DNA of 64,000 bases. It comes from Tetraselmis striata (lineage: Eukaryota > Chlorophyta > Chlorodendrophyceae > Chlorodendrales > Chlorodendraceae). The notes below the pieces were generated by a model. The model made no database searches, had not been told where the DNA came from, and saw only the letters and a program-made list of their open reading frames with translations. Below are positions 263 through 30,880 of this stretch, piece after piece (the first letter of the stretch is position 1; each line of letters starts with the position of its first letter). The stretch is from contig VCJN01000607.1 of the NCBI GenBank assembly GCA_006384855.1, positions 124,001 to 188,000 of the forward strand, read 5' to 3'. The position numbers and the translations under genes are program-made.

Positions 263-2782
263 CTAGCTGAGCTCACGGCCGCGCCGTCCCCTTCCACCTC
301 TGCTGCTCCGCCCCGCCCCTCTGCCCCGTCCTGCGCCGCCACGCTGCTCCTCAGCCGCCATTCTGTCCGCTGCAGCCGCCGCATGCCTCTGCACGCCCGC
401 ATGGCCCGCGTGCCTGCGCTGGGACTCCTGCACCGTTGCCAGCAGGCCGAGCTGCGCGGCGCGAGCTCTGATGGCCGTGCAGGCGGTGAGATCGGCGATG
501 GCGGCACATGCGTCCTCCTGAAGGTCTGCATTCTGGGGATCGGCAAGCATCGCGTTTTGGAGATCCGCCAGCGAGCCCAGCCGCACCGCCTTGTCAACAC
601 CGCTGCCGCTCGTCAGGCTCCGCAGAGCCATCACAGCGCGGCGCTGCACGTCCGTGTTGGTAGGATAGGTACGCATGACGGTCTGGATGGTTGCCGGCAA
701 CGCAAGCTCAGCTGCCTGCGCCACGCCAGGTTGGTTGTTGGCGCAAATCCTAGCGATGGCATAGCATGCCGATGCCAAGAACCCAACGTCCAAAGTTGGA
801 TTCTGGGATGCTGAATAGTCTAAGTCTCCTGGAGATGGTGGATCCTGGTTACCCCGGGGGTCGTCTCCAGAGTCCAGACTTGTTCTCCAGGGGGCAGTGG
901 TCAGGAGTTCCTGCAGGGTAGCCAGCAGTCCCAGCCGCACCGCCTCCATCTGGCCAGCAGTATCATCAGCTACGATGTCACCCGCTGCTGTGCAGGCCCC
1001 AACGGGATAGGTCTTCATAACCTTCTGGATGTCTTCCAGCAGCCCCAGCCGTCTCGCCTTCTCCTGGTTATCCTTGTTGCGCGCCGTCATTTGGCTCACC
1101 ACGAAGCACGCGGTGGCAATGGCCCACTCGGGGTGGCGGCGCATGGCGCTCTGGATGTCAGCCAGCAGGCCCAGCTGCCCCGCCTTTGCCTGGTTGGCCG
1201 CATCACCGGTTGTCAGCCTGGCAACAGCCTCACAAGCGTGAATCTGGACGCGGTGGCTGCCAGGATGAAGCTTCATGGCCCTCTGGATGTCAGCCAGCAG
1301 GCCCAGCCGCCCCGCCTCCTCGCGCTTGGTGGGTGTAGCGCAGACCAAGAGGGAGGTTGCCCAGCAAGCCTCCGCCTGTATGCCCCCGTGGGTTCCATGC
1401 TGCCTCATCGCCTTCTGAATGTCTGCAAGCAGGCCCAGCAGCCGTGGCTCTCCCCAAGCAGCGCTGTCATGGAACGCCAAGCCCACAAGTGCCTGACAAG
1501 ATTGAAGCTGCACACCCTCACTCCCAGCATGCCGTCTCATGGCAGTCTGAATGTCCGTCACCAGGTCCAGCCACCCCGCCCTGCCTACGATGGCTCTGGA
1601 AGCAAAGATGCTCATCACCACGCAAGCGTACTCCTGCACGGTCTCACTGTCGGCATGGCGCTTCATGGCATTCTGGATGTCCACCTGCAGGCCCAGCCGC
1701 GCCGCCTCCACTTCGTGGGTATATGACTTTGTCAGCTTGGCAACCGCCCGACAAGCTTGCGCCTGTACGCCCTCGTGGCGCTCATGCTGCACCATGGCCC
1801 TCTGGATGTCCGCCAGCAGTCCCAGCCGCCCCGCCTCCTTCACCCGGCTGGCGGCGCCACGGCCCACCGTGCAGTGCCTGCGTATCAGCGCGCAAGCCTC
1901 CTCCTGGACAGCTGCCAGCCCCACATGTGCGCGCATCAGCCGCTGTACCTCCGGCAGGCTGCCCGCCCTCCTAATCTCCTCCACCAGTGGCGCCTCATTC
2001 ACCTCCTCCTCCTCTATCACTAGCACCTCCTCCTCCTCCTCCTCCTCTATCACTAGCACCTCCTCCTCCTTGACCTCCTCCTTTACCTCCTCCTTCACCT
2101 CCTCCTCCTCCTCCTTCACCTCCTCCTTCACCTCCTCCTTCACCTCAACCACCTCCTCATCAGTGGTCCTCACTGCACCCTCCAAGGTGGCAGAACCAGC
2201 AGCCCCTTGGCCTGGCTGCCCAGCTACCCGCTGCCTCTGCCTCGGCCGCGGGCTGGGCGAGCGAGATGCTGCAGCGGAAGCCCTTCTGCCAGCCTGAGAG
2301 CGCTCCCTCCCAGCACCACGCGCTGGCGCGGTGCGCGCTGGCAGCCCTGGAGCTGATGCCGCCACAGGCTGCAGTGTCGCAGCCGAGCCCCCCGCTGCCC
2401 GCCGCGCCCTCTTGGCCTCCCAGTGCTCATCCCACTGCCTCCGGAGGCTGCGCAGGTTGGCCATGCTGTGAGGGGCGCCGCCGCTGGATGCCAGCGACAT
2501 GGCCTCGCTGAAGGTGCGCTCCAGGAACGCCGCCGTCACCTCCTCATGCAGCGGCCTCTCCACCAGCTCACGACACGCTGCCAGCAAGGCCTCCGCAGCG
2601 TCGCGCAGCACCTCCTCCGGCATGCCGAGCGTAGCGGCGTAGTGCGCCCCATGCTGGACGGCGTGGGTCAGGGCGGAGGCGAGGCTCACCCGCGCCGGGT
2701 CCAACTCTTTGCCGCGGCTGTCCCGCAGCTTGGGGAGCCCGCCGCTGCCGACAGCAGTGGTGTACACCTGCGCAGCACACAA
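263..2782 (-). CDS. Armadillo-like repeat protein (839 aa)
   Basis: One uninterrupted frame of 839 codons. About eleven degenerate repeats of roughly 42 residues run from about residue 265 to 815. Each carries a core like LGLLADIQRAM, a spacer with His, then VQ..AC.A...L, the two- to three-helix pattern of ARM/HEAT-type scaffolds. Residues about 205-262 are an acidic low-complexity linker built from EEVKEEVKEE and LVIEEEEE units. The N-terminal 115 residues look helical and precede a basic, Ala/Pro/Arg-rich stretch; the C-terminus is a Gly/Arg tail (GRGRGAGRSSRGGRG) that could bind nucleic acid. No catalytic motif is seen, so a protein- or RNA-binding scaffold is inferred. The Met at 2782 is the first in frame, but a splice-acceptor-like CTGCGCAG lies a few codons inside, so the true N-terminus may be on an upstream exon. 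Confidence 0.75.
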   Translation of the reverse strand: MCAAQVYTTAVGSGGLPKLRDSRGKELDPARVSLASALTHAVQHGAHYAATLGMPEEVLRDAAEALLAACRELVERPLHEEVTAAFLERTFSEAMSLASSGGAPHSMANLRSLRRQWDEHWEAKRARRAAGGSAATLQPVAASAPGLPARTAPARGAGRERSQAGRRASAAASRSPSPRPRQRQRVAGQPGQGAAGSATLEGAVRTTDEEVVEVKEEVKEEVKEEEEEVKEEVKEEVKEEEVLVIEEEEEEEVLVIEEEEVNEAPLVEEIRRAGSLPEVQRLMRAHVGLAAVQEEACALIRRHCTVGRGAASRVKEAGRLGLLADIQRAMVQHERHEGVQAQACRAVAKLTKSYTHEVEAARLGLQVDIQNAMKRHADSETVQEYACVVMSIFASRAIVGRAGWLDLVTDIQTAMRRHAGSEGVQLQSCQALVGLAFHDSAAWGEPRLLGLLADIQKAMRQHGTHGGIQAEACWATSLLVCATPTKREEAGRLGLLADIQRAMKLHPGSHRVQIHACEAVARLTTGDAANQAKAGQLGLLADIQSAMRRHPEWAIATACFVVSQMTARNKDNQEKARRLGLLEDIQKVMKTYPVGACTAAGDIVADDTAGQMEAVRLGLLATLQELLTTAPWRTSLDSGDDPRGNQDPPSPGDLDYSASQNPTLDVGFLASACYAIARICANNQPGVAQAAELALPATIQTVMRTYPTNTDVQRRAVMALRSLTSGSGVDKAVRLGSLADLQNAMLADPQNADLQEDACAAIADLTACTAIRARAAQLGLLATVQESQRRHAGHAGVQRHAAAAADRMAAEEQRGGAGRGRGAGRSSRGGRGRRGRELS
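2001..2155 (-). repeat. Acidic low-complexity coding repeat (EEVK/EEVL units)
   Basis: Imperfect tandem cctcctc-type triplets inside the ARM-repeat gene encode the Glu/Val/Lys linker. A coding microsatellite like this is expected to vary in length between strains. Confidence 0.8.
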
Positions 2783-7172: not shown

Positions 7173-7375
7173 ATGGCGCCGGATACGGTTGACTGCCGCG
7201 CGCGCACCGACGACATTGCGGGCGGCGCCGCGTCCTTCGCGGAGCTGCTGCTGCCCGCGGCTCTCACGGAGGCGCTAGGGAGCGCCGGCTTCGGGCGCCC
7301 CTCTCCGGTGCAGTCCGCCGCCATCCCGCTGGCGCGCCTGGGGGTGGACCTCATCGTGCAGGTACAGCCCCCCCG

Positions 7376-7406
<31 letters not shown>

Positions 7407-10400
7407 CCGCCCCCCGTCAGCAGCAACAGTACAGAACGAAAACATACAGCGATAACAGTGCAACACGAGCCTGCTCTACTGGGCCCGGCGTCTCAAATAG
7501 GAATCGCGGAGGATCAGGGCCACTGGCTGCCGGTGCAAGGCCTGCACCCCCAGGTCTGACACGAACGCAGCCGACAGCATCGCTATACACAGCAAGCCAC
7601 CAGCGTCCGTCCACACACACTGACCAATGCAAAGGCTTATAAAGGCACCTGCCCGCATGAGTGAAAGCACCGCCATCTTGGCAATGTGTATATTAAAGAT
7701 GTATGTATGTTATATAAGTGTATATGTTCCTGTATATACACATTTATATGTGTATATATGTATATATGTGTATATATACATAAATATATGTACATATATA
7801 TATATAGAGAGAGAGTCCAGTACACAAGGTTCAAAGTGGCTGAAGGGCATCATGCATCGTCATCAGCTTCTTGATTTAATGAGGAACGGACTGGACGACG
7901 CTTGAGTAATGAACAACCCAAAGAACCGAGCGCTAATCCATGGGACTGAGCATGGGGAGGCATGTTGTCCGGGTCTCCAGCCGCTGGTTAACATCGGAGA
8001 TTAATGCCGTTACAGCGCGCTACCTGCCCATCTCACCATCCGCATCCCACCTCGCATCACCCCACATGCTGTCTGGGTCCACTACCTCTGCACATTTCTC
8101 CGCTGAAATGGTCCTATGCACCACCGCATCCCGCTCCCAGCCATCCAGCGGCTGCGATGATACCCAAGGCTTCCCCACACATGCGAAGCGGGCTCCCTCT
8201 TCAGAGCTCCCCCCCCCCCCCCCCCCTTCACACACACACACACACACGCGCGGAGAGGACTCCACCCCCTGAGAGCTTGGCCCCCCCCCCCCCCCCCCCC
8301 CCCAAACCCCATCCCCCCTGTTGGCGCCGCGCCGCAGGCCAAGTCTGGCACCGGGAAGACGCTCGTGTACGCGGTGGCGGCGCTGGAGAGGGTAAAGGTC
8401 GACATCCTCACGCCGCAGGTGACGGCGGCGCTTGCGTGTGCACGCGGGCCAGGCGTACAGCCTCCCTACGGGATGCCTAACCAGGTACCACTGTCTGCGC
8501 AGGTGATGGTGGTGACGCCGACCAGGGAGATTGCGCTGCAGAGCCACGATGTGAGCTCCCCCCCCCTCCCATCACCCCCGCTCCCCGCTCCCCTCCCGGG
8601 CGCCGCTGCCTGCCCCTGCCGGACCCACCTTCCCCGCAATGCTGCGGCCTCGAATGCCCCTTTCCCTGCATGCTGCGGCCTCCCCTTTTTCTCCTTAATG
8701 CGACGGCCTCCCGCATCACGGCAGGTCATCTCCCGCGTGGCCGCGGGCCTGCGCCTCCCTGGCCTGAAGACGGTCTGCTTCATCGGCGGCCAGCCGGCGG
8801 CAGAGGACGAGAAGCGCCTCCGCCGGTGCGCCTCCCCCTCTCTCCCATCCCCCCCCCCCCCCCTCTCCCACCCCAGCGCCATGAGGCTGCTCCCAGACAT
8901 CCCTCACCTGATACAGGGGCCGGTGGGTGACCCCCTCAACCACCGACTCACCGCCCCTTCTCCGCTGACTCTTCCGACCCGAGTTGTCCGCAACTCCATT
9001 CGGAGGCGGCAATTCTCCACTTCAGTTCCGCTCACCAACATTACCCTATAACGCTTCCGTTTCACAGCTGTGTGGTATGGCTAAGCGCATGGAAGTGGCC
9101 AGCTATGGTGAAATTAAAGCCCCTCTTTGTGAAATAACGTCTCCTATTATCGTCTTTCTCATATTTGTCGACTTTCCCGGTTGTGACATCGCCATGTGGC
9201 ATGTTCCGCTGCGTTTTGTGAGCTGAGCTTATCTTTGGGGCTGAGTGCTTCAGATGAGCTTGGCTCTACCTGGGAGAGTCACAAAGCCCGTTTCCACTAT
9301 AAATAACGTGAATTCAGAGGGTGAATTAGCTTTAGTTCATCAACCTGGCTGGATTACCGGTGTCGACGCGCCTAGAAGGTCCCTTATTATAAGCATCAAA
9401 ATATGCTTGCGAGCAACCTATAAAAACATCCGCTATAGTTCTGCTGCAGTTTCGTCCGCATTTGACCTCTGGCAGGCCGGGCAGGATTTCATTCGCAGCG
9501 TTTTTATCATCACCGTGTTCGCACTTGGATTGCGCGGAAGCAGCCTTGGAGGTTTTAAGTGGAGGCGGAACTTCATTCTGTGGAATCAATCGGAATTAAC
9601 TGGACAAGACTTGATAAAGCCAAATTAAGGGATTCAGCCGGAATTCAGCCGGAAGCGTGGGGTGAAGACCGCCCAGACAAGCACCAGTAGTGGTCACCAT
9701 TGCACTGATTGCATAGCTAGAAGTCAGGTTAATTCATTCAGGGTAGTTCAGCGGAAAGTCAGTCGGGAATGAAGTGAAGGCCAGTTTCAGGACAGTTGCC
9801 GCCGGAACTTCATGAACCCTGCGTCGGAACTTCCGCCAGACATACCGTGCTGTGCAGGCCCTTCCGCACGACCCTGGTCGGCACCCGCAGGTAGTTGAAC
9901 AACACAACTTCTTAAGCGCACTGCCGCACAAACCTACCCCGACGTCCCTCCACCTCCCGCCTCCCCTTCCCCCTGCAGGACCTGCCAGATCGTGGTGGGT
10001 ACGCCCGGCCGGCTGTGCGCGCTGCTGGAGGCGGGCAAGCTGCCGGCAGCGGCGATGCAGCTGCTGGTGCTGGACGAGGCGGACTCTTTGCTGGCAGAGA
10101 GCTTTACGGAGGACATCGAATGGCTCAAGCAGAGCCTCCCGGCGCAGCAGCTGCAGGTGCGATGCCCTCTCCCTCCCGCTTCCCCCCATCCCCGCCTTGC
10201 TTGGCCCTTTGGCTATTGGGGGCTTCGTCAGACGGCTGCCTAAGGCACGCGGGCGGTGCGGGGCAGACGCTGGCGCTGTCGGCCACGTACACGCCAGAGA
10301 TGCTGGAGCAGCTGGAGAGCTGGATGGTCGAGCCGCAGCGCGTGATGTTGTGCGAGGAGACGGTCAGCCTCAAGGTGCGCCTTCCAGCCTTGCCCCCTGC

Positions 10401-13400
10401 GTGCACACGTGTGTGTGTGGGTGTGTGTGGGTGTGTGTGTGTGTGTGTGCCCTCCCCCCTCCTCCCCCTGTCAACCTCAATGGATGCTGGCGTGGTAAGA
10501 AAACAAATAACTGGAACTAGAAAGCTGCCGCGCCTGCCAGAGGCCGAACAAAGATAAGGTCATGGCAGGTGTATTACACGGGCGGGTCGCATGCGGCCCC
10601 AAGTTGAGGCTTACACTCCGGGCTCTGACAGGCACGCCGGCTCCTGTCGTATTTATGAACAAGTGGGTTTGTGTTTGTGCACGAGCTGACTCGTCGATTA
10701 TAAGAATCCATATGATAAGCCTCAAAACGGGTTTGCGCAATCGATGAAGAAACATTCACTTAAGTTCCGCTGTAGTTTCGTCTACATACGACCTCTGGCA
10801 GGCAGAGAAGCTTGTTATTCGCGGTGTTCCTACTACCGCGTCGGCACCCGTATGTGGTACATTCACTCGCACTTGTAACGCAGAGAGAGAGAGAGACCGA
10901 GAGAGAGAGAGACCGAGAGAGACAGAGACAGACAGACCTAGTATGGCATGACGATACCTGGTTTGCCACAACCTAAAGGCGTCACGCTGGCCTAAACATG
11001 AATCCACCGTCAGATACTCTGCCGTAGAACACCGTTGACACGTATGTATCAACGCCTTCCTATACTGACAGTGCTTATTTCATATATATTTCATATAAAA
11101 TATGTTAATATATATATATTCTTTCCTATTCTATTTTTACCACTGCAATATTTCTATAACACCCAACAGTCTATCAGGATGGAAGTTTGGGAATTAGAAA
11201 TATTGAAGTGATAAAAATAGAAAAGAAAAGAAAATGTTTTGATGGTTTGGTTTGGTTTGAAAGAAAACTGGCAGATACATCCCAGTCGTATTGCAACTCG
11301 ATTTCGGATAGCACTAAATATACTTTGAGTTTGTATTGCCTATTATTCAGGAAAAGTATACACGCATTGCTTTTAATTAGATAGCGATACATGAATGCAG
11401 AGCGATATACAGAGATATGATGGCGTTCTTTTTTCTCGCAATGATTACGCGTATGAGGTACCCTCGGGTTGGATCAGATTGAATCAGATCGGAATGCTTG
11501 TACGGTATAGATAATCGCGTTTACGAAGCGTTTACATACTGGCAGGGAATAGAAAGCGCGTTTGGTAAGGATTACAAACTCCGCCGTGTAATCAAGCGTA
11601 GTAGATATGAATGATCGCATAGTCCTCAGTTTCGCGTCCAAGTCTATTATGATGGGACTTGAGCAATACCAAGAGAATAAGAGAATCGAATAGCCGAATA
11701 GAAAAGAAACACCAAAAATGCTACAAGGGCGGCAAAACACAGTCAGGCACCGCCGTTTACGCCACAGATTTTGCCACCTACGCTGTAGTTTATATGTGTG
11801 CATAAATAGACGATATGTATAATACACTATGCATACGGCATATACGATAGTGTATAGTATGTACCTTATACACTAGTGTATACCATTTATACGGCTGTAT
11901 AATACTGTATGTAGATATATAAAATATATATATATACATGCTATGCACTACTGTATATTTATACTATACACTAGTATAAACATATACTATCTCACTCTAT
12001 TACATACTCTATTGCATATATGTAAATATTATACGGTATAGTAAACATATGTTAGATGTGCTGTCACCTACCTCCGCACTCTTGCGCCTGGCGCGTTTTA
12101 CTCAGATCAATAGGAGTTCTGACAGCCCGAAATAAGCTTTCGAAATCCTATCAATACCCCCTTTAAATCCTCAAACCGGGCCTGCCAGTTGGCTCGGCTC
12201 AGTGTGGCATGGACGATGTCTTGTGGGGTAGAGGCTGACCGGGTTGGCGGTCACCTGCAGGGCGTGAAGCACTTTTTTGTGCAGATGGACGCGCCACCCG
12301 GGGAGGACACCGACCGGTCGGCGGCGCTGCAGCTCAAGCTGCCCGCGCTGGTGGAGCTGATGAGCGGAATGACCTTCCACCAGGCTGTCGGTGCGCTGCC
12401 GCCCGCACCACCCGACCGCTCTGCTGGTCCCCGCCTACCCTTCTCCAATTGCCCGGTGGATACGAATTCCTCGAATTCCAGGATGTACATTGGAAGTTTT
12501 GAATTTTGGGGATTTCAATTGCATTTTCGCTGACTTTTTCGCATTGAAGTTTTCGGGATGATCCCTCAAAAGGGCGAGGCTTGTAGGATGTTCCGCTTCT
12601 ATATATAGGTTTTATTGTTACAAATCCTGAATAAGCTGGCAGTTCCCATGGTATACATTGCAGTGGAGCTTAATTCCGGTTCTTTCGTGCGCATGGTGGT
12701 ATGCTCGACTCCGGCACCCCCCGCGCCCGCCCCCCAACCTGAACGGACCGAGCTGATCGCCGCCGCAGTGTTCTGCAACCGCAAGGGCGACGGCGAGAGG
12801 CTGGCCGCGAAGCTCACGTCTTCCGCCTTCCCGGCGGCGTACATATCGGGGAGCCGATCCCAGCAGGAGCGCACCTCCGCGATGACCCAAGTAAGGTGCG
12901 CTGAACGGCGCCCTCCGGCCCCGCCCGCACAGCTCACATTATAGTCCGCCACCTGTTTTGTCATGCCTTGGGACGTATCTTTCTTCTGGATGTGTGTGGG
13001 TCTGAAACGTTTTGAAGTTTGAATTTGAACTTTGTTACGACTTGGTTCCTGCCGGGCTTTTCACCGCGCAGGTCAGCTGTCTTACGGCCCAACTGACACG
13101 AACCCGCATAGGGTCTGCTGCCCCACGATGGGGCAGACATTGCGCGTAGCATGTAGTCCTTTGAAGGCCAAGTCCCTATTACACCCCCCTCCTAGCAGCC
13201 GGCACAGTGATTCCTCATGGGCTACTGTGCCCCTGATACATCGCCATGGTCCCGGCCCTAGACACCCCTCCTCTCCACTCCCCCCTACCCCCAGCATCGA
13301 GGTCTTCCGCCTTTGCGCGCACAACTGGCCCAGGGCTCCAAGCGGCCTCTGGTGTGGTGTTCCACTAGTAGCAGTCCTCGGCCCGCTGTTCGGGTAGGCA

Positions 13401-14012
13401 TCCAGCTAGAGCGGTTCGTGTTGCCGTCCGTTCCATTTGGTGGGGGTTGTCCCGCAGAGCAATAACAGGCGGACTGGGGCCTCTCTTATTTCTCATGCAT
13501 GGGCCTCGAGTCCCCCCAGTCGCCGGGGTGCGTTCCCGGGCCCGGTTATTGGAGCGGCGTGTGGAACAGTTGTTCATCTTGTAACCCCAAAGCCGTCGGA
13601 AGGCCGCGCAGGGGCAGGAGACATGCCAAACGGCATGAGATGCCAATCATAGAAGCCACCAGGCGCACGGAACGCGGTCTTATTGGCAATGTCAGTGTGA
13701 GCCACCCTAAGGGCATGTACTCCTCTGCACGGTAGCGGCCACCGAGAAGTAGCCTCGCGTCTGTGGCTGCTGCTGTTGGGCTAGATTTAATCCATGATGC
13801 GGCAATTGTAATGGCAATATGTACAGTGGTACGTGCAGGAGATGTTGATATCGTGATTCACTTTTGGGAGAGTGTTCCCGAAATCAGGCGCTGATACCAC
13901 GGATGGGAACAACATCCACGATGACCAAACTTGTGTGATGTATGATATTGACAAGCTTATCGCCCGCCATACGAAGAAACGCAGGGGTACAGAGTGGAGC
14001 GTTCGGGATCCG

Positions 14013-14050
<38 letters not shown>

Positions 14051-16353
14051 GGGCGTGTACCTGTTTCGGATCGATTCATTGACTGAAATTGACTATAAAA
14101 AGCGTTTGAACCAGTAACAAATATGAGCGAACCGGATCAACCAGATCGGCATGAAGGTTGGCCATCGGACTGACGCCGTGCCTGCCTGCCTGGGTTTTTC
14201 GGGTGTTGCGGCGGTCTGCCGCTTGCCTCGAAGGGGATTCCAGCGGCGCGTGCTCGTGTCGACGGACCTCACGGCGCGCGGGGTGGACCTGGCGCGCGTC
14301 AACCTGGTGGTCAACCTAGACCTGCCCCCGGAGGCCGCCACGCTGCTGCACCGCATCGGGCGCACGGGGCGATGGGGTAGCCGCGGGGTGGCCGTCACCT
14401 TCTGCTTGGGCGATGAGCTGCCCAAGCTTCGCGATCTCATCGACGAGGTGCTACCTGTTACAGCCCCCTCCCCTTCCCCCTTCCCCCTTCCCTACCTGTT
14501 ACATTTGATTGGGTTAGCGGGTCACAAAAAAGTCGACAATTCTGCACCATTGGGTCGGAGATTCCGGTAATCCCCTTCCACATCGTCCAATCAAACCATG
14601 CGTGTATCAACCTCCTCGTCAGAGCACTTGGATTGTCAGAGCACACTGACGCCTCACCCCCCCCCCCCCCCCCCCAAAGGCAGGCGGCGGCGAGCTCGAG
14701 CCATTGCCAACCCAGATATCAGAGGAGCTCTACCGGTGCGGCAAACGTTGACATTGATGATTACCCAAACAATTATTGCTTTTTCTCATCTGCCAGTGAA
14801 GAAACACTCTTTTTAGTTCCCACCCGCCACCTGCCTCCATGGCCACGCCGTCATCCCGATACATTTGCTGTCATCATGAGGCGCCATTATGCCCCTCCCC
14901 TTCCCCTTGTCGATGAAAACCCGGGAAGGTCCCATCCAAATGGACGGTAACTCCCGTGCGGCCACGCTCGTGCCCGGCGCCGCAGATACGAGCTGGAGTC
15001 CGCCGAGGAGCAAGAGCAGTTCGAGTCGCTCTTGGACGCGCCGCTGCTGCCGGACCCGGACGAGGTCGCAGCGCTAGAGGGTGAGTGACGCTCCCAGTCC
15101 GTCAGGATCGTCAACCGCATCATCGAGATTGTGTTGGGGTTGTCGTGAGGAAAGACATATGGGAAGGCGCGCGCACACACACACACACACACACACATAC
15201 ACCGTCCAGGCGAATGCCGTTATACTTCACGCATGTCAACTGAACATGGCGTCCTCAGCAGGCGGATTGAGCGACGCAAGTTGCGTATGGCGATGGATGC
15301 GCTCTCAACAAGCGCGCAATGCCATCGCCGGGCATGTGAGCGGTGCCGGAAGATAACAACCGTTGGCGCTTTTGGTATTTGAACCGTTTTGTTTTGGTGT
15401 GGCATCGGCTGTGTAGCGGCTATGGTTGGCGATGAGGAAGGAGAGGCCATGCCGGGCGACGGGAGCGATGCGGCGTGGGACTACGCGGCGTACTACAACT
15501 ACTGGTATGGCAGCGGCACGGCGGCTCACCAACCCTCCGGTTGGCCGGCGGGCGACCGCGAGGTACGGCGTAACCCTGGCGACAGCAATGACGTCCCCAA
15601 TCGGCATCCCATCCGCAAACGGCGTCCATCCCTATCAAGCGGCCGCCTCTCTTGGCAGGGATGCCTCGCATGCACACCGTGACCGCGCTTCGGGTTTGCT
15701 ATTTATGTATTTATTTTGAGCATGGTTCCAGATCCCAGCCATTGCATTCGGCAAGCGCATGTGCCGCCTGCATGCTATCACATTCCCTTCGTTGCTTGCC
15801 CCCCCCCCCCCCCCCCCCCCCCCTTCCTCCCATTGCCCTGAATGGCGGCCTGCAGTTGTAGATAGGAACGGTGCACTCTCCAACATCATCACCGATTTAC
15901 ATTTCGTCCCCCGCCGTTGCCTCTGCAGTCGCAGCCTGAAGCCTATCCACATGCTGAAGGACCGAATCCCCAATGGCCCGGCTGGACCGCAGGCAAGTGA
16001 ACAAGCGCATCAGCGCGGCCACCGCACAGCTGCACCGGTTGTTGTGTTTTTTGCTCGGATGCTTTTCGTTTTTCCTTCCCATGGCCAATGATAATCCTAT
16101 CTTTAAGCGCTGCTTGGTGATGCTGGCAGGTGAGAATCCGTCCACGCCGTGGCCTCCTGGCCCGCCACCGGGAGACGCTCCTCCTGCGCCGCCGCAGGAC
16201 ACTTCCGCGCCATCGCAGTCAGCACAGTACGAGAAGTATCTGTGCGAGTATCACGCGTGGACGGCCAAGTACTCAGAATGGAGGGACCAGTACCGGCTGT
16301 GGTTGTACAACTTTCACATGGAGGCCGCGTATCAGGCATACTATGGCACATAG
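7173..16353 (+). CDS. DDX20: DEAD-box RNA helicase, DDX20/Gemin3-like (14 exons, 586 aa)
   Basis: Exons: 7173-7361, 8338-8418, 8503-8550, 8725-8825, 9979-10156, 10267-10374, 12261-12390, 12769-12895, 14234-14447, 14680-14735, 14986-15080, 15417-15562, 15929-15992, 16130-16353. All phases join without a stop. Motifs in order: Q motif (GFGRPSPVQ), I (AKSGTGKT), Ia (PTRE), Ib (TPGR), II (DEAD), III (SAT), IV (VFCNRK), V (STDLTARGVD), VI (HRIGRTGR), so an ATP-dependent RNA helicase is expected. The N-terminal core (RPSPVQ...DLIVQAKSGTGKT) and the Tyr/Trp-rich C-terminus (WDYAAYYNYWYGS, then YEKYLCEYHAWTAKYSEW) resemble animal DDX20/Gemin3, an SMN-complex helicase for snRNP assembly. It is shorter than human DDX20, mainly in the linker before the C-terminus. 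Intron 13 is GC-AG. The helicase call is near certain; DDX20 orthology is from memory of the family. Confidence 0.9.
7376..7405 (+). repeat. C30 tract in helicase intron 1
   Basis: Thirty consecutive C on the sense strand shortly after the donor at 7362. Intron 1 holds two more C tracts, at 8209-8226 and 8281-8303, the latter 34 bases before the acceptor. Confidence 0.95.
9395..9520. repeat. Dispersed intronic repeat R5, copy 1
   Basis: The run gacctctggcaggc, preceded by a gttctgctgcagtttcgtc-type stretch, recurs at 10725-10830 in helicase intron 6 and, more diverged, at 34655-34735 in the membrane-protein gene. It is non-coding. Confidence 0.55.
10725..10830. repeat. Dispersed intronic repeat R5, copy 2
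   Basis: Shares gacctctggcaggc and the preceding (a)gttccgctgtagtttcgtc-type segment with 9395-9520. It lies in helicase intron 6, whose remainder is AT-rich with a (GA)n run near 10880-10930 and (TA)-rich palindromic stretches at 11820-12060. Confidence 0.5.
13012..13180. repeat. Dispersed repeat R2, copy 1 (helicase intron 8)
   Basis: Starts with a tttgaatttgaactttgtta-like segment, followed by tacggccc, cgcatagggtc and a final ggccaagt. The same order recurs at 16588-16710, and the first part at 25285-25330. It looks like a short non-coding element. It contains a CGCGCAG that mimics a splice acceptor, but the true exon 9 acceptor is at 14233. Confidence 0.6.
14017..14048. repeat. (CT)n microsatellite in helicase intron 8
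   Basis: About sixteen CT units on the sense strand. Confidence 0.9.
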
Positions 16354-19840: not shown

Positions 19841-19943
19841 CTGTACTTTACTGTACTTTATACTACTCGTAATCCAGGGTTCGTAACCCTTCTGGACGCC
19901 TATGTTATCGCGATTAAAGATTGGTCCTCTGCGGTCACGTACG

Positions 19944-19958
19944 ATTAAGCGCGGGGGT
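19944..19958. repeat. LINE-A left target-site duplication
   Basis: attaagcgcgggggt, identical to 24401-24415. It fixes the 5' end of the inserted element at 19959. Confidence 0.85.
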
Positions 19959-22900
19959 TTTACCTATCTATCGCCTCCCCCGATCCCCAGCCTCTGGCTG
20001 TGGCGTGGCCGGTGGGGGTTCAGCACCGTGGGGCGTCCTCTGGCCCCTCCAGGCCCCTCTGCTAGGGGGTCTCCCGTGGGGGTAGCGGTCCCGGCGGGGG
20101 CGGCGGTGGTGGTGGGCGCGATGGCGCGGGTGCAGTCATCGACGCCCGGCGTGGGCGTTGACTGGCAATTCCGGTGTTGCGATGGCGGCTGCGGACGCAC
20201 CTACCGGCGGCCAGCCCCCTTGTGCACGCACGTGAACCACGGGATGGAGTCCGACGACCCGGAGGTAGCTGCCATGCACCTCGCCTACGCTACGACTTTC
20301 GACCCTTCTGTGTATCTGCGGTGCGTCCCACGAGACGGCTGCCCGCGCTCGGGCCACCACGTGTTCCATGGCGCGCAAGCGGCGGCCCGTGCCGCCACCT
20401 GCCAGTTCTGCAGCCCCCCTCCTGCCACGGCTCCGCCCCCCGGTGTGGCTCTCCCGGCGTCGGCAGCTGGCGTGCGGGCGCTGCAGCGCCAGCACGCGCC
20501 GGCCCCTGCCTCAGCCGCTCATGATGCCGCTCTCGCGGCCACCGCTCGGTGGTGCGCAACCAGCGATGTCTACCGCAAGATGCCCCGTACGCCGCTGCGG
20601 GGCACGGCTGTCGGCGTCTGTCCCGCAGCTCGGCCTGTCCTCTTCCCCCTGCTAGACCGTACGCTGGCCTATGCTGACCGCTTCCCTCCTACCGACGACC
20701 GGTCGTACGGGGCCGAAGGCGCTGTCTGCGTATTTGCGGGGCTTCTACTGCGACCCTACCCATCCAGCAGCCCCGCAGTTGTGCGGAAATTGGCGGAGCG
20801 GCGAGTGCGGCTGTGGGAGGCAGGGGATGCTGTGCGCGCCGGCTTCTCGGTGTGCGGGATGCAGCAACTGTGGCGCGAATCGCGGGATGGCAGCGAGTTA
20901 CATAATTACCAGATAGAGGCGGGTGAGCTGCCGACGACCACATCTCGGAGTGCCCGCCGACGGAAGCGCCGGCGATCTGCGAGGGCGCGGGCGGCTGCTG
21001 CTGAGACTGCGGAAGGGGGCGCCGATGCTGCGGCTGATGGGGTGCCGCCGGCGGTGGTGGATGCTCACCGCCGGGCGGCGAAACTCACCGCTGTGCAGGA
21101 GCTGCGCCGCGCTCGCCAGGCGCTGGACACTGCTGACCTCGGCATGGTGTCTGGCGCCGCTGCGGCGCTCCCTGCCCTCGATGCCCTCCATCCGCCTCCT
21201 GCTGCCACCAGCCCGGAGTACTCTCCCCCCGAAGAACCGCCGGACCTGCAACGGGCGCCGCCGTCGTGGGGCGACAATGCGGATGAGGTTATGCGGTGGG
21301 AGGAGGACCAGCGGCGGGTTCTGCGTCGTGCACCCCGCCTTTCCGCAGGGCATGTGGACTGGTGGCGTTGGGAGCACATCATGGACCTAGACGTACCTTC
21401 ATGGCGCCTGTGGGTGAACCGCTGCCTGGCGGGGCGGTGCCACTCGCGCACTGCGGCTTTCTTGGCGAGTGGCTCCGTCTTTGCGCTCCACAAGGACGAC
21501 CCCGCCGCGCGCGAGGAGCGGGAAAAGAGCGGCGAGCCGCTGCGAGTACGCCCGCTCGGCGTCGGCTCCGTGCTGGTGCGCCTGGCCTCCGCCCACGCTC
21601 TGGGACAAGTGGGTGCGGATGCGCGGGAGGTCATGGGCCCGGTGCAACGCAGCTTTCAGTCGGGAGCTGGCTGTGAGACGGCGTATATGAGCATGCGGGT
21701 GGCGCTGCAACTTTTCGGCGGGCGTGGTACTGGTGGGAAAGGACTACTACTCCTGGATATTCGGAATGCCTTCAATGAGGTATCCCGGGGTGCGATACTT
21801 TACGGCTTGCTTCAGCACCCGCGGCTACATGGCCTGATCCCTTTTTTCCAGATGTTGTACGATCGCCGTAGCGACCTGTACTACTACGCGACGGATGATC
21901 CCGGTACTTTGCGCGCCACCCTACAGTCTCGTACGGGTGTACGCCAGGGTGATGTCCTGGCCCCGCTGTACTTCTGCCTCGCTATCGCGGGCCCAGTGCA
22001 AGCGGTTGTGGCTCGTACCGCCGCTGATACTTTTTGCCAGAGTTTTGCGGATGATTGCGGCGCGGCCACTGCCGCGGCCCACGTTCCGCGCGTTTTCGAC
22101 GAGTACTGCACGGAGCTTTCCAAAATCGGACTGGTGGTACAGGACAGTAAGACGCGGTACGTTCGTCACCCCGGCGACAGCGAGTCCGAGTTGCGGACAG
22201 TACGGGAGAAGTTGGCCCCGGGAGGATATCGGACCCCGGCCGATGATCCTGTCCAGGATGGCGCCGTGTACCTGGGTGCTCCTATTAGCCATTACCCCGA
22301 GTGGATGACCGGCGCGTTGGGGCGGCGCCGGGAGGCCCACGCCACACTGTTGGAGCGCATCGCCTCCTTTGGCACGTCGGGATACGGCTGCCACCATGGG
22401 GCCATGCGGTTGCTGGTCGTGTGCGCGGTGCGGCAGACTGGCTTCCTCAGCCGCATGATGCCGCCGTCGGAGCTGGACCCTTTCTTGGAGGCCGTGGACG
22501 CCGCCAACATTTCGGCTGCGTTTTCGCTGCTTGGCCTGGACGCTTGCGACCAGTCTACACCGCGCATGGAGGCTGCAATCGTTCAGATGAGTATGCCCGC
22601 GGATTTTGGCGGTCTGAATCTGGCCTTGCTGCAGTCCGAGGCCCCTGCGGCGTTTTATTCCGCGCAATCGGTTGTCCTGCCAAAGCTGGTACGGGAGTAC
22701 GGGCCCGCCCTTGGCCCCTTATACGAGGCGGTCCGCGCCGAGGTGTCGTCCGTGGCTACGAGTGCTTTGCCATGGGCGCGTGAGACGCGCCGCGTGTACG
22801 AGACTGTACGGGCCCTAACCACGTTACCGCAAGAAGATGTGCGGCGCGCACGCGCGGCGTATGGGCACGCCCACGAGATCTTCGAGTTACTTACGGTCAG

Positions 22901-24400
22901 TAATGCTACGACCACCGCTGCATCGGATCCAGCAGCTGGTACTACGACCCGTACGGGTACGAGCACTAGCGGAGGATTGCGCGTCACCACATCTCCTTTT
23001 ACGGCCACTCCTCTTGGAGTTGGTACTGGTGAGGCCGCCTCTGCTGCCCAGCAATTGCTTCCTATCGGTGGTACGAGTACTGCCAATACCGTTACTACAT
23101 GCGCTTTTGTAGCTCTGAAGATACCGTCGCCGGGCGAATTAGTGGCACACCCTCCGTCAGCAGCCACTGTTTCCCTCCCAGAATCGCTGCCAGGTCCTAC
23201 TGCTCCGCCCTCGGGTACGGGTTCGGGTGCGACCTCCGATGATCAACCCACGACCATGGTTGTCCAACGCCACCTCAGCCGTGCGATTCGCTTGCGTGAC
23301 TTCGTGGCCCTCGATCTCAGCTTCCAACGTACTGGTGCAGCGGCCTCGCGACTTGATACCCTGCGCATGTACAGCGCGTGCGGGCCGGGCTCCCTATCGC
23401 TTTTCCAGTCGGATCACGAGTCCGCCCGCAAGATTCCCCATGCTGCTTATGCGGCCGCCGCTGCGCGGGTACTGGGCCTTTGCCCGCGCGGAGGTTCCGC
23501 GCTTGTCACTTGCCCTGGCCCAACGTGTGGTATTGATCCCTTATTGCTTCGCTCTACGGATGGCTCGAACCGGAGCGCTACGGATTTCATCGTGGATCAT
23601 CTACCCATATGCCCCGTAGCGAACTACAAGCACCGCATGCATACCGCTTTGAAGAATCTGTGGGCATCTGTGGCAATTGATGCGGGGGCGGTGCTTGACC
23701 GGGACCGCTCGGGAGCCGGCGACTTGACCCTTGAGACGAGTGGGCTGCGCCCAGCGGACCGCTCGCGGCCGTCGGACCTGACGCTGTCGGGGTGGGGAGG
23801 GGCAGCGTGCGATTACATGATCGACTTCGCGTGCGTGTCCTCCACGACCCCCACTTGGAGCAACGACCCCCGCTGGTGCATCCCGGGAATCGCGGCGACC
23901 GAGGCGGAGCATGCTAAGTTGGCAGCGGACCGGGCGTCTTCCGCCCCAGTGCAGGGTGTTCACCGGTACTACCCTTTTGTGGTTGAAGACCGCGGCCGAC
24001 TCGGGAAGTCCGCTTTGACTGTGGTCTACATCTTCGCGGTGCTGTTGGCTGTGCGCAACTTCCCTGGCGGTCCTTCCGCCCCGACCTCTTGCTTTCTTCG
24101 TGGTCAATCCGTTCAGGCACTTCGAAACTTTGTCGCCGGCCAACCTGCTGAGTTCCGCCGTCACCTGTCGCGCACACGGCGGGGGCTGTTGCAGCGGGTC
24201 TCGGCTTGCGTGCATGGTACCCTGGGCGGCATTCTCTCTGCCGGTGTGCAGATGACCAAGTCTGATGCGTGTGCTCGTGCCCACTCTGCGTCTTCTCATG
24301 TTACTGCTTCCACCCCGCAGTCGATGTAGAGGACCTTTCTGATTGCCTTTTATTTTGGTGATTTCCGATATCGCCTTCTGCTGCTAGCTCATGTAATTAT
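19959..24400 (+). mobile_element. LINE-A: REL-endonuclease non-LTR retrotransposon, apparently full length
   Basis: A 4.44-kb element bounded by a perfect 15-bp target-site duplication (19944-19958 and 24401-24415). It carries one long open frame and a short 3' UTR of about 70 bp ending ctgctagctcatgtaa, which contains TGTAA, then a few A/T bases. There is no poly(A) tail and no apurinic-type endonuclease; the endonuclease is C-terminal, as in the R2/NeSL/CRE-type clades. The clean ORF and perfect duplication point to a recent insertion. Five fragments of its 3' end lie at 24416-24444, 32098-32248, 41282-41313, 57704-57759 and 58065-58186. Confidence 0.9.
20121..24329 (+). CDS. LINE-A polyprotein: zinc finger, reverse transcriptase, REL-type endonuclease (1402 aa)
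   Basis: The frame is open upstream to 19902, but that crosses the target duplication; the Met at 20121 (MARVQSSTPG) is the first inside the element. A CCHH finger lies at residues 20-40 (C-x3-C-x12-H-x2-H), and a second Cys-rich cluster at about 65-100. The reverse transcriptase has motif A LLLDIRNAF (about residue 545), motif B TGVRQGDVLAPLYF (about 610) and motif C SFADD (about 637), where the two Asp bind metal. A CCHC knuckle (CPGPTC...HLPIC) at about 1135-1165 is followed by RPSDLTLSGW, CDYMIDFACVSS and RYYPFVVEDRG, the pattern of the PD-(D/E)XK nuclease of site-selective LINEs. The product should nick target DNA and prime cDNA synthesis there. No stop or frameshift is seen. Clade assignment is inference. 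Confidence 0.88.
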   Translation: MARVQSSTPGVGVDWQFRCCDGGCGRTYRRPAPLCTHVNHGMESDDPEVAAMHLAYATTFDPSVYLRCVPRDGCPRSGHHVFHGAQAAARAATCQFCSPPPATAPPPGVALPASAAGVRALQRQHAPAPASAAHDAALAATARWCATSDVYRKMPRTPLRGTAVGVCPAARPVLFPLLDRTLAYADRFPPTDDRSYGAEGAVCVFAGLLLRPYPSSSPAVVRKLAERRVRLWEAGDAVRAGFSVCGMQQLWRESRDGSELHNYQIEAGELPTTTSRSARRRKRRRSARARAAAAETAEGGADAAADGVPPAVVDAHRRAAKLTAVQELRRARQALDTADLGMVSGAAAALPALDALHPPPAATSPEYSPPEEPPDLQRAPPSWGDNADEVMRWEEDQRRVLRRAPRLSAGHVDWWRWEHIMDLDVPSWRLWVNRCLAGRCHSRTAAFLASGSVFALHKDDPAAREEREKSGEPLRVRPLGVGSVLVRLASAHALGQVGADAREVMGPVQRSFQSGAGCETAYMSMRVALQLFGGRGTGGKGLLLLDIRNAFNEVSRGAILYGLLQHPRLHGLIPFFQMLYDRRSDLYYYATDDPGTLRATLQSRTGVRQGDVLAPLYFCLAIAGPVQAVVARTAADTFCQSFADDCGAATAAAHVPRVFDEYCTELSKIGLVVQDSKTRYVRHPGDSESELRTVREKLAPGGYRTPADDPVQDGAVYLGAPISHYPEWMTGALGRRREAHATLLERIASFGTSGYGCHHGAMRLLVVCAVRQTGFLSRMMPPSELDPFLEAVDAANISAAFSLLGLDACDQSTPRMEAAIVQMSMPADFGGLNLALLQSEAPAAFYSAQSVVLPKLVREYGPALGPLYEAVRAEVSSVATSALPWARETRRVYETVRALTTLPQEDVRRARAAYGHAHEIFELLTVSNATTTAASDPAAGTTTRTGTSTSGGLRVTTSPFTATPLGVGTGEAASAAQQLLPIGGTSTANTVTTCAFVALKIPSPGELVAHPPSAATVSLPESLPGPTAPPSGTGSGATSDDQPTTMVVQRHLSRAIRLRDFVALDLSFQRTGAAASRLDTLRMYSACGPGSLSLFQSDHESARKIPHAAYAAAAARVLGLCPRGGSALVTCPGPTCGIDPLLLRSTDGSNRSATDFIVDHLPICPVANYKHRMHTALKNLWASVAIDAGAVLDRDRSGAGDLTLETSGLRPADRSRPSDLTLSGWGGAACDYMIDFACVSSTTPTWSNDPRWCIPGIAATEAEHAKLAADRASSAPVQGVHRYYPFVVEDRGRLGKSALTVVYIFAVLLAVRNFPGGPSAPTSCFLRGQSVQALRNFVAGQPAEFRRHLSRTRRGLLQRVSACVHGTLGGILSAGVQMTKSDACARAHSASSHVTASTPQSM

Positions 24401-26346: not shown

Positions 26347-26594
26347 GTTGCGCTAGCTGGTCAGCTGGCGCAAAAGCAGAAGGTGGACTCCCCTCGTGGT
26401 GCGGGTGCGTCATGTAGCAGGGCTGTCGCATGCTGTCGCTAGCGCCGCTGGACATCGGAAAGTCCAAGCGGTACGCGTACTTCGAGTTCAGGTACTGGTC
26501 GCTAGCATTCAAACTACTTTCGAATCTTAACGTTACCAGTACCGGTGACAGAATAGCCCGGTGTAATCAAACCTCTATGTTACCAATATGACCA
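26347..26594 (-). repeat. YR element internal direct repeat (A2)
   Basis: About 248 bp nearly identical to 30972-31226, sharing long runs such as gttgcgctagctggtcagct with a few small differences. It overlaps the end of the recombinase region. Confidence 0.9.
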
Positions 26595-27700
26595 TTTAAC
26601 CATTGTGGGGCCGCGTTTGCCATCATGCCGCCCGTGGGCGGGCAGCTTGTCGCTGGCGGCCCACCCCAAGGGGTAAGACAACCGAAGAGCTGCCACGATG
26701 CCGCACACGGTAGCGCCGTGGGATTGATGTAGTCGAGCACGACGCTGGACAACTGCGCCCAACCGCCAAAGTGCTTGATCTTCTGCAGCACCACGCCGAT
26801 GGCGTACGCCGCAGTGGCCGCGCCCTTGCGGAGAGAGTGTGACGTCCACACAAACCCGGGAGGCGGGTGCTCCTCCAACATATGTGCCACTAGCTGCAAC
26901 CAGTCTGTAACGGTGGCCGATGTCGACGATGCCGTCGGCTCGTCGTGGGTCACTGCCCACCGGGATGCCGGCAGTCCGCGCTGACCGCGGTAAACTGCGC
27001 GAGCGGCATCAGAATATAGCAGCATGGCCGCAATCCGGGGCTGCGCGCGCGCCGGAATCTGGCACTGTAACTTCCGGTCACGGTGCTGCCCGCGTCTGCC
27101 TTTTCGGTCCCGATGGTACAATAGGATTGTACCATCTGCCGTCAAATCGCCCGCCTGGCAGGCTACGCCGGCCTTGCCACGCCCGTAGAACATATACATG
27201 GCAACGTCTGCCATCGCGGCGTGGAACAAGAGGATACGAGGAAGCTGGTCGCGGGTTAATGTGGGTCCCAACTCCTCACGCAGGGTCTCCGCCAGCCGCA
27301 ACGTCCGTGTGATCAACCGGGCGGGCACGTCGGTGCGGACCCCAGGCGGGTCTGGCTCAACTTGCGATGCCGCGAGGCCCTCTCTCACCTTGCTGATGAG
27401 GTCGCCTTGCGCCACCGGCTCCGCGCCGTGGTCGCGGTAGAAACCATTGATCGCGGAAATGTAAGGCTGCAGACTGGCTGCCTTGACCGTCCCCCGCAAA
27501 CCCTACCACGCGATGTAGCGCGCGACGGTTGCCGCCGTGCCACCCATGGGCGGCACACCCTGCTCAGCGCAGAACTGTAGGAATGGGCGGATGTCACTGC
27601 CGTGCGTACTCACGGTAGTCTCTGCCCACGCCGACGCGTACAAATGAAACGCCGTTTCGCCGAGTTGGTCGTTACCTAGTACTGAACGCATGTACGGACG
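26570..27700 (-). pseudogene. YR element: tyrosine recombinase region
   Basis: The core-binding part contains YASAWAETTVSTHGSDIRPF and LQPYISAINGFY. The catalytic part contains HSLRKGAATAAYAIGV and, further on, HFGGWAQLSSVVLDYI, the H-x-x-R and terminal Tyr region of tyrosine recombinases. In DIRS-like elements this enzyme integrates circular cDNA in place of a DDE integrase. Part of a broken element. Confidence 0.85.
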
Positions 27701-27969
27701 CATAGTAGCTGCCCACGGGTTCGTGCCGCTGGTCTGGATGTCCAACAGATATATTGCCTGCGGCATGCGTGGCGCGCGCGCGGGCCTGACGACATGCGTA
27801 GCACCTCTTACCGGGAACAGCGCCAAGGTTGCGCTCACTGATCCGCGGCGCAGTTGCAGCCATGACGGTATGGCACACGGAAGACACTCACTGCCCAGCG
27901 CGGCGCTCCGGGCATATCGCGCCTTGCCCTTCGCCCCGGCCGAAAAAGATCGCGGCGAGACAGTATCAC

Positions 27970-29700
27970 GCGCTCCGCCACCGCCATCTCGGTAAGTGCA
28001 TGGTGCCACACCTTGCCCTCCCAGCGAGGGGCCACGACGATAGCGGCCGCGCCGCTCTGGCGCAGCTTCTGCACCAGGTCCGGCAGAAGCGGCCAAGGGG
28101 GGTTGCAGTAGTTGTTCTCGCGACGCCACTCCGCATCGGACAGGTGCAGGGAGTCCACCGCCTCGCAGCCGGGGTCCAACCACGCAACGTTGTAGCGTGC
28201 GTGGTAGCATCGCGTTCAGGGCTGATGCGAACCGATCGACGGAGTGCGCACCCCACATTGCCTCCAGCTCTGCGAACATGACGGGCTACAGTTGCCAGTC
28301 GTCGCTGTCGAGGTGTCGGCTCAGTCGATCCGCCCAGACGTTCGCGGCGGACCGGATGTAGCGGGCTCTGATGTGTACGCCGTTGCTGTCCAGCAGGTAC
28401 CATAGCTTGCATCATCGCCGGAGAGCGGGAGGTGAGGCCAGCAAGGACGCTGCATACCGCATGGTTGTCCTCGTGCAGCAGCACGCGGCGACCGGCGAGG
28501 TGCGGCAGGAAAGACTCCACCGCCATCCGGACGGCTTTCAGTTCTTTCCAGGTGATGTGCTGGCGCTCGTCGGCTGCCCCCCAGAACCCCCGCGCCTCCA
28601 GCCTGCCATTCAGCACTGCACCCCAACCGTAGCCGGAGCTGTCGCAGTGCATGTAGGCCGCCTCCACAGGGCGGTGGATAGGGCGGCCGTTGGCCTGAGT
28701 CGGCACGGCGGTCCACCACTGCAGGTCGCGCCGCAGCTGGTGTGTCGTCATGCGCACTCGGCCGCCCCACTTGGAGCCCACCACGTCGTGGAGCTCCCGC
28801 CGGTAGAAGCGCGCGGCCGGGATTGCCAAGAAAAAGGTATTGAGCCCGCCGAGCGAGCGACTGCAGCTCCCGCGCGGGTAGCCAACGGGCGTCGCGGGCC
28901 GCGCGCTGCAGCAATTGCTTGGCTTGGCACGCGAGCCGTTGCAGTTTGTCCACCGGGGCATAAAAATATCCCGTGGCTGTGTCGATATCCACTTCAAGGT
29001 GCTGGCCGTACTGGACCGGCTCCCACAGCCCTTTGGCGGGGTTGCGCAGCAGGCCCGGGCTGTCCAGCAACTCGGCGACGCGCTGGCGGAGCTCCAGCGC
29101 CTCCGGCTCCGACGAGGCGAACAGCAAGAAATCGTCGACGTATGGTAAGATGCGCGCTCCCCTCCACCGCCCGCGGCGCAACCAGCGGTGCGACCGCGGG
29201 ACATTGCCATGCGCAGCGGGGGTAGTCGGAGAGCGTAGGTGCTTGACGAACGTCATCGTGAACGTCGTGAAGTAGTAAGGGCTGAGCGACCAGCCCATGG
29301 GAAGGCCGCACAGCCGGTAGAGGGTCCCGCGGATGTTGACCGTGAAGTAGTCGCGGTCGGAGGGCGCAATGCCCAGGGCATATATAGAAGCCGTCTTGCA
29401 GGTCGAACGAAAACATGTAGTCCCCTTTCGCGGTCAGGTGTCGGACGCCCATGAGTGTCTCCATCCGTAGTCGCTTGCGCGCGCAAAAGGTGTTGAGCAC
29501 GCGGAGGTCGATGATGAAACGCCACTGGTTGTCGCCGGGCTTCGGAACGAAGAACGCCCGGGACACCCACCTTGCGCACGACGGCTTCTCCCACACGCCG
29601 GCCGCCGTAAAGCGTTTTAGTTCGGCGGTGAGGAACTTGAGTTGGGCAGGGGTTGCGTCGTTGAACGAGACGCCTTGGTTGAACTACCTTGGGGGTGGCC
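27970..29700 (-). pseudogene. YR element: reverse transcriptase and RNase H region
   Basis: Recognisable pieces: RAFFVPKPGDNQWRFIIDLR and FSFDLQDGFY (fingers/palm with the motif A Asp), LPYVDDFLLFA (YVDD catalytic motif), and an RNase H segment with CDSSGYGWGAVL and WKELKAVRMAVESFL. Downstream is the DIRS-type conserved segment DRFASALNAMLPR with NNYCNPPWPLLP. The order RT, RNase H, recombinase fits DIRS-like elements. Part of a broken element. Confidence 0.85.
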
Positions 29701-30019
29701 GGTTGTAGCGGAAAGGCACGCGTACGCCATCCCGTATCCAGCTCGTCACTTGCGCGCTCGCGCCGATGTCTCGCCAGTGTCGCCAACTCCGCCTTTCGCG
29801 GTGACGCATATAGTCGGAGTCGGGGCAACAGCTGTCGGCGCGGCGCGCCACACCGCCAGTCGCGTGTCTTGTCGCCGGTCCTGCCGCCGTTCTTGTCGCG
29901 GTTCTTGGCGCCCGCCTCGCGGCGTTGCTGTTCCCGCCTCTCGCGCGCCGCCTTGTCCTTTTCCTTCCGCGCCTTGTCGCGGTCGGTGCCGCGCTCCGCT
30001 GCTTGCCTCTTGAAAGTCA

Positions 30020-30880
30020 CTTATGCCTGTGCCTTGGCCGCAGCCGCGAGGCCGACCTCGAGGCGCTTGTCCTCGAGCGCTGTTAGGAGGCCGTCGACGA
30101 CGTTGGTGGAGCGATCATGCTCGGCGGTGTCGAAGACTCGGGAGTAGGTGAATCGCTCGGCGACTTGCTCCTCGGGGGTGAGGGCCTTCTTTGCCTTGAA
30201 GCGTCGAAGGTAGGTGAGCCTGGACTCATCCGCGTCGCCCACCGCTTCAAGCGTGCGATGCGCGGCGTCGAGTAGGTCGAGGGCGTCGACGCGGTCTTGG
30301 GTGGGGGTATTGGGCGCGCGAAGCGTAGCCAGAGCTGTCTTAGCCGCCGCGTTAGCGGCGGCGCGTAGACGCCATAGCACAGCATGTGGCGGTAATCGTC
30401 GCGCGACGCAGTCTTGTTGGCCTCAGTGAGATAGCGGTCGGCCTCGTCGTTACGGGGCCGCCAGAGGCTCGGGCGTGTGGCGCCCGACGGGGGGGGGGGG
30501 CGGGGGGGGGGGGGGGGGGGGGCAGTCTTGGTACGCCAAGGGCAAGAGGTCTTCCCAATCTCGAGGGTCGATAAACACGGCCGCGGCGTCGCGCGCGCCC
30601 CCCGTAGCAGCGGTTGTCCGGGCGTCGTGCTCCGGCTCCTTGCCACCCTCGCCGACAATGTCGTCGTCCGAGGGAATGTCGCGCTGCTCGTTGTGCTTGT
30701 TGTTGTCCTGTTCGTCCAAGCGGGTCGATAAAGCGTCCACCTTCAACGCCAGCGCTTGCAGTAACGCAAGCGTTGTCGTGTCCCGTGTCGTCTCTGTCGG
30801 CTCCGCGGGCGTTTCGGCCAAACTGTCGGCTGGCGTTGCCTTCGTAGGGTCTGCCGCCTTCTTGCCGCCTGCCATCGTAG
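30020..30880 (-). pseudogene. YR element: gag-like region
   Basis: Lies first in the element. It opens with MAGGKKAADPTKATPADSLA, then a coiled-coil-like LLQALALKVDALSTRLDEQD and an acidic stretch. A long C tract (sense strand) falls inside. No zinc knuckle was seen. Gag assignment rests on position and on the coiled-coil character. Part of a broken element. Confidence 0.55.

Follow-up and report, generated by a model that had tools for sequence, protein, structure and literature searches.

A probable Gemin3/DDX20 orthologue in a chlorophyte alga whose genome also holds Gemin2 and a candidate SMN gene

Background

In the human SMN complex the DEAD-box helicase Gemin3, commonly presented as a protein of animal type, is, together with Gemin4 and Gemin5, important or crucial for the restructuring of snRNA (PMC10584915). 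The same 2023 paper states that conservation of the snRNA structures which Gemin3 opens is found in Metazoa, coincident with the appearance of Gemin3, a statement which is based there on a 2018 review and on Kroiss 2008. A simpler SMN complex is attributed to S. pombe and plants (PMC3877121). No Gemin3-5 were found in fission yeast (PMC8287938), and a 2004 survey found no member of the complex in Arabidopsis (PMC545797). Dictyostelium has been named in a 2023 review as the first carrier of Gemin3 (PMC10608988).

In this work we are describing a helicase gene located in a 64-kb stretch of DNA (the whole analysed stretch is called the window below), together with a search of the assembly it comes from (224 Mb, 2903 contigs) for possible partners of its product. 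No report of a green-algal Gemin3 was found among the listed papers of the literature search, which covered freely accessible articles.

Results

Structure of the gene

Fourteen exons on the plus strand, at 7173-16353, join into a single open frame of 586 amino acids and a stop, with all junctions in phase. The preliminary description had likewise counted fourteen exons in phase and a 586-aa product, and the frame rebuilt by us has the same length. The features, with the basis of each in brackets, are as follows.

7173..7361, plus strand: exon 1, start, N-terminus and Q motif (frame; aligned with human DDX20)
8338..8418, plus strand: exon 2, motif I AKSGTGKT (joined frame)
8503..8550, plus strand: exon 3, motif Ia PTREIALQ (joined frame)
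8725..8825, plus strand: exon 4, domain 1 (joined frame)
9979..10156, plus strand: exon 5, motif Ib TPGRL and motif II DEAD (frame, Pfam)
10267..10374, plus strand: exon 6, motif III SAT and end of domain 1 (joined frame)
12261..12390, plus strand: exon 7, opening part of helicase domain 2, containing a lengthened stretch which recurs in shorter form in DDX20 (frame, alignment)
12769..12895, plus strand: exon 8, part beyond motif IV (joined frame)
14234..14447, plus strand: exon 9, motif V STDLTARGVD and motif VI HRIGRTGRW (frame, Pfam)
14680..14735, plus strand: exon 10, end of the core (joined frame)
14986..15080, plus strand: exon 11, putative acidic linker (frame only, no demonstrated homology)
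15417..15562, plus strand: exon 12, putative linker containing WDYAAYYNYWYGS (frame; no Pfam match)
15929..15992, plus strand: exon 13, putative linker, followed by the GC-AG intron (joined frame)
16130..16353, plus strand: exon 14, Pro-rich linker, predicted aromatic C-terminal helix and stop (frame, spacing count, AlphaFold2)
16216..16344, plus strand: predicted C-terminal helix (aromatic spacing, AlphaFold2)
16228-16314, plus strand: run of nine aromatics with 3-4-3-4 spacing inside the predicted helix (spacing count)

Twelve of the 13 introns are of the GT-AG type, the last one, intron 13, being GC-AG. With the more obvious choice of boundaries for exons 8 and 9 the product has 581 aa and is five residues short before motif V. 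In the model adopted here the donor is moved by +5 bases and the acceptor placed 10 bases earlier, which yields 586 aa and the same length as human DDX20 in this stretch. Exons 10-13 and every splice site are predicted from sequence alone, with a single splice choice taken for exons 10-13.

All seven motifs spelled out in the list, from AKSGTGKT to HRIGRTGRW, are intact as judged by eye, and in the 586-aa product Pfam recognizes the DEAD (125.3 bits) and Helicase_C (85.6 bits) domains; a helicase core in this frame cannot be due to chance. The GC content of third codon positions drops from 0.90 in the core to 0.73 in the C-terminal part, for which reason the C-terminal exons are regarded as less certain than the core, and a Pfam search with the C-terminal part returned no match. 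Of the last three exons, to which two Tyr/Trp-rich peptides had been assigned beforehand, exons 12 and 14 do carry them and exon 13 has neither.

Relationship to DDX20/Gemin3

When domain 1 alone was compared with the PDB, human DDX20 (Gemin3, DP103; 2oxc/3b7g) reached 187.9 bits, while the runner-up among 134 matching sequences had 123.2. In the full-length search eIF4A was placed at the top with 224.8 bits and DDX20 lower, with 185.2, because the DDX20 chain in the PDB covers domain 1 only. A tree with the DDX20, DDX19 and eIF4A families had been proposed in the preliminary description; in our trees, of 11-12 rows and with two DDX20 sequences only (window and human), the window protein is paired with human DDX20 with support of 99/99 for the core, 100/99 for domain 1 and 84/83 for domain 2. 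The human domain 1 agrees with the PDB chain, the human sequences of domain 2 and the tail being provisional, and the support which domain 2 lends to this grouping is modest.

Over the core 176 of 400 positions (44%) are identical to human DDX20, with the motifs common to both proteins, as compared with 30-36% identity to DDX39B, DDX6, DDX19B, eIF4A3, DDX17 and yeast eIF4A. Exclusive matches number 32 with human DDX20 against 3-15 with these six helicases, the low counts in the two eIF4A rows arising because those rows share matches. DDX39B/UAP56, DDX6, eIF4A/eIF4A3 and DDX19B have the DEAD-box core in common with the algal protein (33-36% identity) and fall outside the clade that it forms with DDX20; none of them is known to have an aromatic tail. 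The two DDX20 proteins have a longer beginning of domain 2 than the four other helicases compared at this point. They differ from each other in overall size, 586 aa in the alga as compared with 824 aa in human, and in the linker, which is long in human DDX20 and short, acidic and Pro-rich in the alga.

When human DDX20 domain 1 was in turn searched against the genome, the best single stretch was one long eIF4A exon (124.6 bits), the window gene being represented by two short exons (45% and 53% identity). This result speaks against the assignment, and is explained by the splitting of the gene into exons. A further DDX20 candidate, on contig C2399, was rejected, as it reads as what we take to be eIF4A/eIF4A3. 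One scan of viral contigs revealed no close relatives. Obtained results support, on the level of sequence, the assignment of the window gene as an orthologue of DDX20/Gemin3 in a chlorophyte alga, and the Gemin3/DDX20-like identity claimed at the outset is upheld by the domain-1 margin in the PDB, the core tree and the core identity.

C-terminal tail

The helicase had been credited in the preliminary description with the same tail as animal DDX20; the two tails have in common the Tyr/Trp enrichment at the end and aromatics placed 3 and 4 residues apart, and they are not the same by alignment. When the window tail was aligned locally with the provisional human tail, 166 of 2000 shuffles preserving composition scored as high, and for ungapped best-register matching of aromatics on aromatics 803 of 5000 did so. 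For the peptide of exon 12, compared with the same human tail, the figure was 1103 of 2000, and for both Tyr/Trp stretches of the window protein joined together 507 of 2000, which gives no alignment evidence of likeness beyond composition.

Tyr and Trp account for 12 of the last 60 residues in the window protein and 15 in the human one, numbers reached in none of 20000 whole-protein shuffles of each. Aromatics following one another in alternating steps of 3 and 4 form a run of nine in the algal tail (1 of 20000 tail shuffles) and of seven in the human tail (46 of 20000), the probabilities being post hoc since visual inspection of both tails had revealed the spacing ahead of the count. In a control of 4179 translated segments, each 44 residues or longer, taken from six frames of the window and of fetched loci (mostly non-coding, with some loci overlapping), a run of nine was reached once, by this very tail, and the next best was six.

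AlphaFold2, used with a single sequence, predicted the algal tail alone as one long helix (pLDDT 94.0). With the Pro-rich part included the value was 82.0, the Pro segment being of moderate confidence, and a structure search with this model gave a single match at E 7.2. Packing of the Pro segment on the aromatic helix in a pancreatic-polypeptide-like manner is unsupported, the helix alone being predicted with higher confidence. We also considered mimicry of Gemin8, the N-terminus of which is required for SMN binding in fission yeast, and rejected it: the score was reached by 1042 of 2000 shuffles for the window tail and 833 of 2000 for human DDX20 (provisional sequences).

We infer that the tail would form an amphipathic aromatic helix conserved by spacing instead of sequence, and hypothesize that this helix may dock on SMN. 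To our knowledge no role has been assigned to an aromatic-heptad helix of Gemin3. In Drosophila Gemin3 the counterpart of the SMN-binding domain is situated in the middle of the protein, upstream of the tail, and is less conserved (PMC2577925); inspection of the window protein by eye revealed no counterpart of the mapped SMN-binding region after the core. As C. elegans MEL-46 is described as similar in its N-terminal half only (PMC2711086), an alignable tail was not taken as defining DDX20.

Host lineage and origin of the contig

Among PDB sequences the rbcL product of the assembly is most similar to 1gk8 (1044.1 bits), which we take to be Chlamydomonas Rubisco, the best sequence of presumed land-plant source having 989.8 bits. 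The contig with this plastid gene carries further frames which presumably are rpoB, rpoC, rps2, atpB and an atpE-like gene. A search for SBP domains, which are not known outside green plants and algae, gave 76 matches in the genome. On account of the rbcL closest to Chlamydomonas and these 76 matches we regard the nuclear genome as that of a chlorophyte.

Retroelement repeats of the window recur on five of six stretches around SBP genes (best matches 87-96% identical) and are also present on the SMN and Gemin2 loci described below; they occur on none of two bacterial-looking loci, none of two plastid stretches and not on the one IFT172-like stretch. Contamination is unlikely, because the window contig shares dispersed repeats with the SBP contigs. 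The location of the gene outside animals is thereby supported, although this may not be the first such case, as Dictyostelium has been named (PMC10608988).

Bacterial-looking DEAD-box genes are found by eye at two loci of the assembly (L001, L004), so the culture was probably non-axenic.

Other contents of the window

Several frames of the window are element-like, as assigned by eye. A reverse-transcriptase-like ORF of 1475 aa and LINE type lies at 19902-24329 (plus strand), with parts 87-94% identical on other contigs, and a cluster of ORFs resembling tyrosine recombinase and reverse transcriptase, of DIRS type, at 26567-30658 (minus strand). Related reverse-transcriptase-like ORFs of another element family at 44096-46037 and 55652-57232 (both plus strand) have copies on an SBP-gene contig that are 94-96% identical. 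An NYN nuclease-like domain (PF01936, 31.8 bits) was found at 40768-41253 (minus strand), and an ORF near it contains repeated LGYKK..FL units and has no Pfam match at E<=0.001. The 839-aa ORF at 263-2782 (minus strand) contains many armadillo-like repeats as seen by eye. The window has 21 runs of at least 12 C or G and none of A or T; such C/G runs are present on many other nuclear loci of the genome as well.

Possible partners in the same genome

SMN and Gemin2, for which the preliminary description had proposed to look in the same genome, were both represented, SMN by a candidate. Gemin2 appears as pieces of PF04938 on contigs C2729 and C843, which are nearly identical (3596 of 3600 bases the same), and the joined exon pieces reach 84.4 bits, above the Pfam cut-off. 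The search for the SMN YG box gave six weak matches, of which that on C428 was third by E-value (0.84) and the sole one above the cut-off, only with frame neighbours included (24.5 bits).

The candidate on C428 (L019) has two exons and 303 aa. It carries DDLLIVSFRAAVDSFHAFHG close to the N-terminus and DEELAELLMAWYYAGFHTGRRQGRM close to the C-terminus, the part between them being rich in proline; no Tudor domain was seen. Its C-terminal piece, excised after the hit, matches PF20635 with 30.6 bits (cut-off 21.3), and in the PDB fission-yeast SMN comes first for this protein (E 0.01). Pfam returned nothing at E<=1 for the whole candidate and nothing at E<=10 for its N-terminal piece, corresponding to the Gemin2-binding part, hence we treat it as a candidate SMN, on the grounds of its YG box and of the order in which its parts follow one another. 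The search by Tudor domain did not lead to SMN: the single match above the cut-off (C2425, L015) reads as a protein that we take to be SPF30/SMNDC1, and a weak second match (L016) offered nothing convincing. SMN devoid of a Tudor domain is described in some phyla, and the YG box reportedly plays an important part in the association of SMN with Gemin3 and Gemin8 (PMC8287954).

Searches for Gemin5, Gemin7 and Gemin8 had weak power. For Gemin5 the only match in the genome, on C787, is better explained as an intraflagellar-transport-type protein, presumably IFT172, since the ELP1 TPR (66.6 bits) and IFT140/IFT172 TPR (64.8) profiles outscore GEMI5 (57.6). Gemin7 and Gemin8 had no match in the genome, and their controls matched nowhere either.

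Discussion

We consider it likely that the window gene is a chlorophyte Gemin3/DDX20 orthologue acting in an algal SMN complex as its ATP-dependent helicase. In such a complex the Tudor-less SMN would oligomerize via its YG box and carry Gemin2, which would hold the Sm proteins; Gemin3 would dock on the SMN-Gemin2 core, probably via its C-terminal part, and open the pre-snRNA structure around the Sm site, allowing the Sm ring to close. What is seen in the alga itself is orthology of the core, intact motifs, a complete frame, a Gemin2 gene, a candidate SMN gene and a predicted aromatic helix, whereas expression of the gene, SMN binding, snRNA remodelling and the part of the helix in docking are presumed.

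The same gene could serve as a DDX20 orthologue outside any SMN complex, in another RNA or transcription process, the SMN role being then an acquisition of animals. Transcriptional and small-RNA roles of animal DDX20 (PMC10608988, PMC2577925), the unrecognizable SMN-binding region of the algal protein and the failure to find Gemin5 in the genome fit with that; the Gemin2 and candidate SMN genes found alongside it and the aromatic-spaced C-terminal end shared with human DDX20 (provisional human sequence) do not, and we hold this reading to be rather unlikely.

Much less probable is transfer of the gene from an animal or another eukaryote, or a contaminant contig: the gene has 13 introns and just 44% identity to its human counterpart, and the repeats of the window, which are common to the SMN and Gemin2 loci, mark five of six SBP-contig stretches and neither bacterial-looking locus, even if the bacterial-looking helicases (by eye) of a probably non-axenic culture and a tree with two DDX20 sequences only would allow for it. 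That the protein belongs to a different subfamily of plant or algal helicases (UAP56-, DDX6- or eIF4A-like) and acquired its Tyr/Trp tail by chance is hardly credible in view of the 65-bit DDX20 margin on domain 1, the 100/99 clade and the 32 exclusive matches, despite eIF4A topping the full-length search and DDX39B being the next branch in the core tree.

With the SMN-complex helicase as the preferred reading, the closest parallel is the S. pombe complex (SMN, Gemin2, 6, 7, 8), in which a Tudor-less YG-box SMN goes with Gemin2, as it would in the alga. The two differ in Gemin3, apparently present in the alga and absent, with Gemin4 and Gemin5, from S. pombe (PMC8287938). Gemin7 and Gemin8, part of the yeast complex, had no match in the alga, where the controls matched nowhere either.

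The protein family is known; unexpected are the chlorophyte lineage and the co-occurrence with SMN and Gemin2, which together suggest a pre-animal origin followed by repeated loss. The occurrence in two lineages, animals and green algae, is best read as inheritance from an early eukaryote, the gene having been lost in fission yeast and Arabidopsis, among other lineages. An Arabidopsis GEMIN2 has reportedly been described later than the 2004 survey. More tentatively, and with doubt prevailing, the last eukaryotic common ancestor (LECA) may have possessed an SMN-Gemin2-Gemin3 machine, in which the aromatic-heptad helix already served for docking on the SMN oligomer, being retained through Tyr/Trp spacing instead of sequence and lost with Gemin3 in fission yeast and in land plants such as Arabidopsis.

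SMN, Gemin2 and Gemin3 in a chlorophyte would contradict a metazoan origin of Gemin3, and the age of the SMN complex becomes testable. The alga would provide a small SMN complex in which a Tudor-less SMN is paired with a helicase, and the aromatic-heptad helix would be a definite, mutable element of Gemin3.
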